A program made the translations under genes and the position numbers. This document shows, in pieces, positions 21,305 to 32,432 of a stretch of DNA of 41,875 bases. This DNA is from Microcaldota archaeon (GTDB taxonomy: Archaea > Micrarchaeota > Micrarchaeia > Micrarchaeales > CABMGC01), in contig DAHWIK010000048.1 in assembly GCA_027345185.1 (NCBI GenBank), forward strand, positions 1 through 41,875, given 5' to 3'. The stretch's first letter is position 1. Every line of letters begins with the position of its first letter. The notes below the pieces were generated by a model. That model searched no databases and was not told the origin of the DNA. It worked only from the letters and a program-made list of their open reading frames with translations.

Positions 21305-21425
21305 TGGCGAGGGGGAGATTTGAACACCCGATCTCTAGATTTCTTAGCAATCATCGCAAAATGCTCATTACTCATAAAGCTTGGCATATGAGTCTAGCGC
21401 TCTAACCAGGCTGAGCTACCCCGCC
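21305..21425 (-). tRNA. tRNA with CAU anticodon (Met elongator or Ile2), 46-nt intron
   Basis: The minus strand folds as GGCGGGG/CCTCGCC acceptor with A73, D-arm GCTC/GAGC, anticodon stem CTAGA/TCTAG with loop CTCATA+A, and T-arm GGGTG-TTCAAAT-CTCCC (one T-T mismatch). A 46-nt intron (21341-21386) sits after base 37, the canonical place; the intron carries ATGAG, which can pair with the anticodon-loop CTCAT as expected for a bulge-helix-bulge. Anticodon CAU could be elongator Met or Ile2 (agmatidine-modified); the D-arm looks somewhat Ile2-like, but this is not decisive. It is not the initiator, by its acceptor sequence. Confidence 0.88.
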
Positions 21426-30389: not shown

Positions 30390-30514
30390 GATATTTATTT
30401 GCAACCAGTAAAAATAAATACGTAGACCCGGACCGGCATGCGGTTGAAATGCTCAAGTGTCGGTTATTAATACTTTATGCATTGAGAATAATACGACCAT
30501 TGTTGGTGTTTTAT

Positions 30515-30739
30515 ATGACGCAGGAAAGGCCTTTTGACCTGATAAACAAATCGATAGGGCAGCAGGTGCTCATAAGATTGAAGAACGGAACCGACATACG
30601 CGGAAAGGTGGTGTCGTTTGATGCTCACATGAATATAGTGATAGATGGCGCTGAAGAGCTTGATGAGGGAAACCTGAAGTCAAAGCTTGGCACGATACTA
30701 CTTCGCGGTGGGAACATACTTTTTTTATCTCCTGTCTGA
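30515..30739 (+). CDS. LSm (Sm-like archaeal) RNA-binding protein
   Basis: 74 residues: PFDLINKSIGQQVLIRLKNGTDIRGKVVSFDAHMNIVIDGAEEL (Sm1) and LGTILLRGGNILFLSPV (Sm2). The ring-forming family binds U-rich RNA and has roles in RNA processing. The track start at 30449 is too early; the ATG at 30515 gives normal length. It is followed by tRNA-Ala only five bases after the stop. Confidence 0.93.
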   Translation: MTQERPFDLINKSIGQQVLIRLKNGTDIRGKVVSFDAHMNIVIDGAEELDEGNLKSKLGTILLRGGNILFLSPV

Positions 30740-30744
30740 AAGGT

Positions 30745-30836
30745 GGGCTCCTGGCGCAACGGTAGCGCGCCTGCATGGCATGCAGGAGGTTGCGGGTTCG
30801 AAAAAACTTCATGTTCCGAAAATCCCGCGGAGTCCA
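30745..30836 (+). tRNA. tRNA-Ala (GGC) with a 20-nt insert in the T-loop
   Basis: GGGCTCC/GGAGTCC acceptor with A73 and the G3-U70 pair that marks alanine, D-arm GCGC/GCGC, anticodon stem CCTGC/GCAGG with GGC anticodon, T-stem GCGGG/CCCGC. Between the T-stem halves are 27 nt, TTCGAAAAAACTTC...CGAAAAT, where seven (TTCGAAT) are normal, so about 20 nt must be removed. Exact splice points slide because of the A runs. This is a non-canonical intron near position 58-60. Confidence 0.88.
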
Positions 30837-32344: not shown

Positions 32345-32432
32345 GGGCCCGTAGCTCAGCTTGGATAGAGCAGCACCCTTCTAAAATTATGAGGAAAGGT
32401 GATGGTCGCGGGTTCAAATCCCGTTGGGCCCG
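32345..32432 (+). tRNA. tRNA-Arg (UCU) with a 13-nt intron
   Basis: GGGCCCG/TGGGCCC acceptor with G73, D-arm GCTC/GAGC, anticodon stem GCACC/GGTGA (outer G-A mismatch), loop CTTCTA+A giving UCU, and T-arm GCGGG-TTCAAAT-CCCGT. A 13-nt intron (32384-32396) follows base 37, the canonical place, and carries GAGG able to pair with CTTC of the loop, as in a bulge-helix-bulge. At 13 nt it is near the short end for archaeal introns. Confidence 0.9.

Follow-up and report, generated by a model that had tools for sequence, protein, structure and literature searches.

T-loop introns, site 59/60 among their positions, have been documented in archaeal tRNAs (PMC4090602), and archaeal tRNA introns in the T-arm have been described as well (PMC3293823). 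According to Fujishima et al. (2011), as cited in PMC4033280, ARMAN-1 and ARMAN-2 carry multiple tRNA introns together with an epsilon2 splicing endonuclease. The ARMAN-2 enzyme, EndA, is represented by PDB entry 4FZ2 (PMC6379350). It cuts bulge-helix-bulge (BHB) and BHL substrates alike, its recognition is independent of the overall shape of the pre-tRNA, and it requires the residues of the ARMAN-specific loop (ASL) and of the catalytic triad (PMC12397907). In addition, permuted tRNAs joined at 59/60 are found in Thermofilum pendens and Cyanidioschyzon (PMC3218864). The splicing mechanism, T-loop introns and the epsilon2 enzyme are thus already known; what is new here is the presence/absence and covariation record of one tRNA intron site across an order.

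The locus described below lies in a stretch of 41,875 nucleotides, the window, from the genome of a tiny, acidophilic micrarchaeon. Judging from sequence comparison, the insert in its tRNA-Ala(GGC) gene is almost certainly a 20-nt archaeal tRNA intron at site 59/60, to be cut by an endonuclease of the epsilon2 (ARMAN) type.

The interrupted tRNA-Ala(GGC) gene

The gene and its surroundings comprise the following features:

30449..30739, + strand: Sm-like (LSm) protein gene (relatives found by tblastn; named from its sequence, not from a profile)
30745..30836, + strand: tRNA-Ala(GGC) gene with the T-loop intron inside (sequence, four-arm fold, orthologues in relatives)
30777..30779, + strand: anticodon GGC, in the 7-nt loop ATGGCAT flanked by CCTGC/GCAGG
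30797..30802, + strand: 5′ T-loop exon portion TTCGAA, positions 54-59 (comparison with relatives)
30803..30822, + strand: predicted intron AAAACTTCATGTTCCGAAAA, 20 nt, site 59/60 (56 intronless orthologues and BHB register)
30823, + strand: 3′ exon start T60 (T in 78/78 copies, this T being part of the search pattern)

By direct reading, 30745-30836 consists of a 72-nt mature tRNA and a 20-nt insert. The acceptor stem is GGGCTCC/GGAGTCC with G3-U70, A73 is present, the D-arm reads GCGC..GCGC and the T-stem GCGGG/CCCGC. The T-loop, TTCGAAAAAACTTCATGTTCCGAAAAT (30797-30823), has 27 nt instead of the usual 7, so that the description given in the initial annotation, an enlarged T-loop with intact arms and G3-U70 pair, was confirmed. 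Deleting 30803-30822 leaves TTCGAAT, one of the two loop forms found among intronless orthologues. The Sm-like gene, whose conserved part starts with MTQERPFD, ends 5 nt upstream of the tRNA.

Neither ARAGORN nor Rfam at its gathering score called a tRNA-Ala(GGC) at 30745-30836, and the tRNA model gave a weak partial match of 21.5 bits over positions 8-63 only. In such genomes, essential tRNAs are missed by standard gene finders. The genome of the window (G000) spans 923 kb and is 83% complete; it holds one tRNA-Ala(GGC) match, and the sole other Ala gene found in it has the anticodon CGC. A second, intact tRNA-Ala(GGC), which had been named beforehand as a sign that the interrupted copy is a pseudogene, was looked for and not seen in this 83%-complete assembly.

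Occurrence of the intron across the order

The tRNA-Ala(GGC) genes of the whole order were retrieved by pattern from 164 genomes, 134 of which gave a match. The analysed set contains 134 sequences from 133 genomes, with G056, whose insert is longer, left out and G014 contributing two copies; the pattern includes both flanks, TTCRAA and T60, and copies with other flanks escape it. An insert was found in 78 copies (77 of the 133 genomes), while the remaining 56 have a plain TTCAAAT or TTCGAAT. The inserts range from 13 to 44 nt and all lie between TTCRAA and T60, with A at both positions 58 and 59 in 78/78 intron-bearing copies, TTCRAAT being the loop of the intronless relatives. Their interiors are largely unrelated and the splice-site elements are conserved. 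Since the same tRNA is interrupted at the same point in 77 of 133 genomes, as the proposed check in relatives revealed, the insert is not a chance event.

Intron-bearing and intronless states both occur in each of the two families of the order. Six genera are mixed, and the genus of the window has six members with the intron and four without. Several intronless congeners share the locus; the Sm-like neighbour is common to intron-bearing and intronless relatives and directly precedes the tRNA in the majority of each. Beyond the order, 137 other genomes from the phylum yielded a single match to the pattern (G264, same design), a count that is a lower bound since the pattern is tuned to the order. 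With more than 130 species that have or lack an intron at one tRNA site, this set is suited to tests of gain and loss, as well as to testing how relaxed a splice site an epsilon2 enzyme accepts.

Splice-site structure, enzymes and alternative readings

Three elements of the putative splice site were located in the copy of the window:

30801..30803, + strand: 5′ bulge AAA, predicted cut after base 2, 30802/30803 (BHB rule applied to the fold)
30817..30820, + strand: CGAA, intron strand of the 4-bp central helix (minimum-free-energy fold, pair-57 covariation)
30821..30823, + strand: 3′ bulge AAT, predicted cut after base 2, 30822/30823 (bulge comparison in 15 relatives)

In the precursor, exon TTCG (54-57) and intron CGAA would form a helix above the T-stem, with a short bulge on either side. 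A homodimeric epsilon2 endonuclease would cut each bulge after its second base, and ligation of the exons by RtcB would yield a normal T-loop, TTCGAAT. Across the predicted junction, the joined exon sequence would run through GCGGGTTCGAA and continue with TCCCGC.

The minimum-free-energy fold of the whole gene (-39.2 kcal/mol, z = -2.6) contains all four arms, and in it CGAA 30817-30820 pairs with exon TTCG 30797-30800. The 3′ bulge and the outer helix of a strict BHB are present. The inner helix is weak, with 0 bp directly after the bulge and a 3-bp AAC/GTT helix only past an A.C mismatch, so the copy of the window is assigned to the relaxed hBH form. Folded in isolation, its T-arm was no better than shuffled sequences (z -0.47), and the isolated T-arms of the tRNA-Pro of the same genome and of the tRNA-Ala of G032 formed the inner hairpin only, with the weak central helix open. 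Therefore, energy alone does not prove a BHB, and it is covariation, not folding energy, that carries the case.

In the central helix, exon TTCR (54-57) faces the four intron bases that end three bases short of the 3′ end of the T-loop; it is fully paired in 66/78 introns. Pair 57 is G-C in 11, A-U in 56 and G.U in 3, and it is broken in 8/78. When collapsed by genus, a step that only partly offsets the influence of relatedness on these statistics, 33/42 combinations show Watson-Crick pairing (p about 3e-5 by permutation), and C lies opposite G rather than A with a Fisher p = 2e-4. One genus, g19, holds both the G-C and the A-U form by itself. A strict BHB was taken to have a full central helix and, immediately following a 3-nt 5′ bulge, 3 bp or more of inner helix. 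This form was found in 35/78 introns, whereas 500 shuffles of the interiors gave 3.7 on average and never more than 11. By these sequence statistics, the tRNA-Ala introns of the order are, as a group, of the BHB type.

The bulges also bear on the splice point, which had been considered ambiguous. The 3′ bulge AAT, present in 63 copies, allows three cut registers with an identical product. In the other 15 copies it is ATT, AGT, ACT or TAT, and only cleavage just ahead of the last T gives back the A59 of 56/56 intronless copies. Since the comparison with relatives and the BHB register together fix the splice point, the ambiguity is removed, and the junction is predicted at 59/60 with a canonical cut within each bulge.

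The same comparison bears on the origin of the insert. TTCGAAAA and TTCCGAAAA resemble each other in the sequence of the window, and these flanking repeats had been read as a possible sign of a local duplication of TTCGAAAA, an explanation that concerns the origin of the insert and not its present function. They look repeated because exon TTCG pairs with intron CGAA and TTCGAA is its own reverse complement, so that the pairing partner of a self-complementary motif mimics a copy. Where position 57 is A (60 copies, exon TTCAAA), the intron mostly has TGAA: the pairing is kept, while the likeness between the first 8 loop bases and the 8 before T60 drops to 3/8 as its commonest value. A duplication, being unnecessary where A57 copies pair without the repeat, is very unlikely and was rejected.

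Regarding the enzymes, no EndA was found in the window's own 83%-complete assembly, either by a Pfam tRNA_int_endo search or with ARMAN-2 EndA as a query. The Pfam domain was detected in 58/60 relatives (57/60 above the cut-off), all 11 congeners included, in proteins of about 390 aa, and the ARMAN-2 query matched 148/162 genomes of the order, missing from G000 and 13 others. As all 11 congeners have EndA, incompleteness is the likely cause of its absence from the G000 assembly. The suggested search for an epsilon2-type gene thus failed in the genome itself and succeeded in its lineage. EndA of the congener G007 aligns with 4FZ2 over 13-388, nearly its whole length (E 7e-147), and in this alignment the counterparts of ASL Y160/K161 and of the Y236/H251/K282 triad are retained (numbering from PMC6379350 and PMC12397907). 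An RtcB gene is present in the window's genome (G000:C36:24994-26298, E 5e-164). For the splicing pathway of this copy, we infer both cuts, the ligation and an EndA gene in the unassembled part of G000. A genus-level EndA tree, with 2/11 inner branches well supported, was too poorly resolved to tell losses from gains. The initial proposal, in which a T-loop intron interrupts the tRNA-Ala of an ARMAN-type archaeon whose epsilon2 enzyme has broad specificity, is supported by the introns of relatives and by the EndA of the lineage.

Some internal pairing of the insert, seen in the whole-gene fold, would fit an alternative in which the mature tRNA keeps the 27-nt T-loop as a structured expansion. 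However, a T-loop of 27 nt is expected to block the contact between T-loop and D-loop. Inserts of 13-44 nt with mostly unrelated interiors nevertheless conserve their splice-site elements, 56 relatives have exact 7-nt loops, strict BHBs far exceed the chance expectation, and enzymes for both cutting and joining exist in the lineage, all of which makes a retained expansion highly improbable. A pseudogene, that is, a dead tRNA-Ala copy carrying an insertion, would be in line with the failure of the gene finder to call the tRNA. It is extremely improbable given the intact arms and G3-U70, the status of this gene as the sole Ala(GGC) gene found in G000, the conserved locus behind the Sm-like gene, and the conservation of the interrupted form, with covariation, over two families of the order. 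An assembly or sequencing error, conceivable for a contig from a metagenome-assembled genome (MAG), has a negligible probability, as different inserts occur at the same point in independent MAGs of congeners.

Other tRNAs and comparison with known systems

At least three other tRNAs of G000 have T-loop introns:

G000:C16: tRNA-Ser(GGA), 31 nt inserted at 59/60 and a further 12 nt or so in the anticodon loop
G000:C38:8962-8999: tRNA-Pro(AGG), 21 nt inserted at 59/60, inner helix capped by GAAA
G000:C36: tRNA-Leu(CAA), 15-nt insert, best placed at 58/59

The Pro and Ser tRNAs of congeners likewise carry T-loop introns. An (A)TAARC-like start is found in 15/78 Ala introns from 11 genera, compared with 0.6 expected from shuffles, and a looser form in 11/14 Pro/Ser introns. 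Since this pattern was noticed first and then tested on the same data, the shared start is a lead only. Site 59/60 may, though this is doubtful, be a hot spot for introns in the order, where (A)TAARC introns would have moved or been exchanged among Ala-GGC, Pro-AGG and Ser tRNAs and been repeatedly lost, as permitted by the epsilon2 enzyme and in the manner proposed for Thermoproteales. In two tRNA-Pro copies (L231 of G049 and L232 of G042), an apparent second insert on the 5′ side of the T-arm accompanies the T-loop intron.

The tRNA-Pro(AGG), with A34 in the 7-nt loop TTAGGGA, was present in G000 and in no fewer than 20 further genomes across several genera of its family. A34 is, to our knowledge, very rare among archaeal tRNAs. 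The pattern search for Pro tRNAs found AGG, TGG and CGG and no GGG. A deaminase-like ORF (PF14437, E 2e-16; G000:C1:10051-10428), present also in a few relatives, does not regularly co-occur with the Pro(AGG) tRNA and is at most a candidate tRNA A34 deaminase.

Further unusual tRNA genes were observed. Within the window, 21305-21425 (-) is a tRNA whose anticodon loop contains CAT and is interrupted by a long intron with box C/D-like motifs (GATGAT); ARAGORN with introns allowed assigns it to Ser(cga). The tRNA at 32345-32432 (+), with a short intron in its anticodon loop, reads as Arg(TCT) and is called Gln by ARAGORN in the same mode. Elsewhere in the genome, a long intron with box C/D-like motifs is found in tRNA-Trp(CCA) (G000:C5:5073-5136 region), and tRNA-Leu(TAA) (G000:C36:38279-38344, -) has a D-loop insert. 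A tRNA remnant of 46 nt (G000:C27:18020-18065), which retains the acceptor and T-arm and lacks the D and anticodon arms, lies about 50 nt downstream of a tRNA with TAT in the anticodon loop.

Compared with known systems, the predicted tRNA-Ala intron resembles the described 59/60 introns (PMC4090602) in position, small size and BHB-type splice sites. Those introns are known mainly from Crenarchaeota and Nanoarchaeota, whereas here the site is used in Micrarchaeota, in one tRNA over much of an order. Permuted tRNAs share the same T-loop junction and BHB processing there, while the exons of the window are in normal order. With the introns of ARMAN-1 and ARMAN-2, the lineage is shared and so, judging from the congeners of G000, is the enzyme type (PMC4033280; PMC6379350; PMC12397907). 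G031, from its second family, was taken as ARMAN-2 (Ca. Micrarchaeum acidiphilum) since its EndA stretch is 100% identical to 4FZ2, and its tRNA-Ala(GGC) has an intron at the same place as that of the window. ARMAN-2 and the window thus have the same tRNA-Ala(GGC) site in common and differ in species and in intron sequence.
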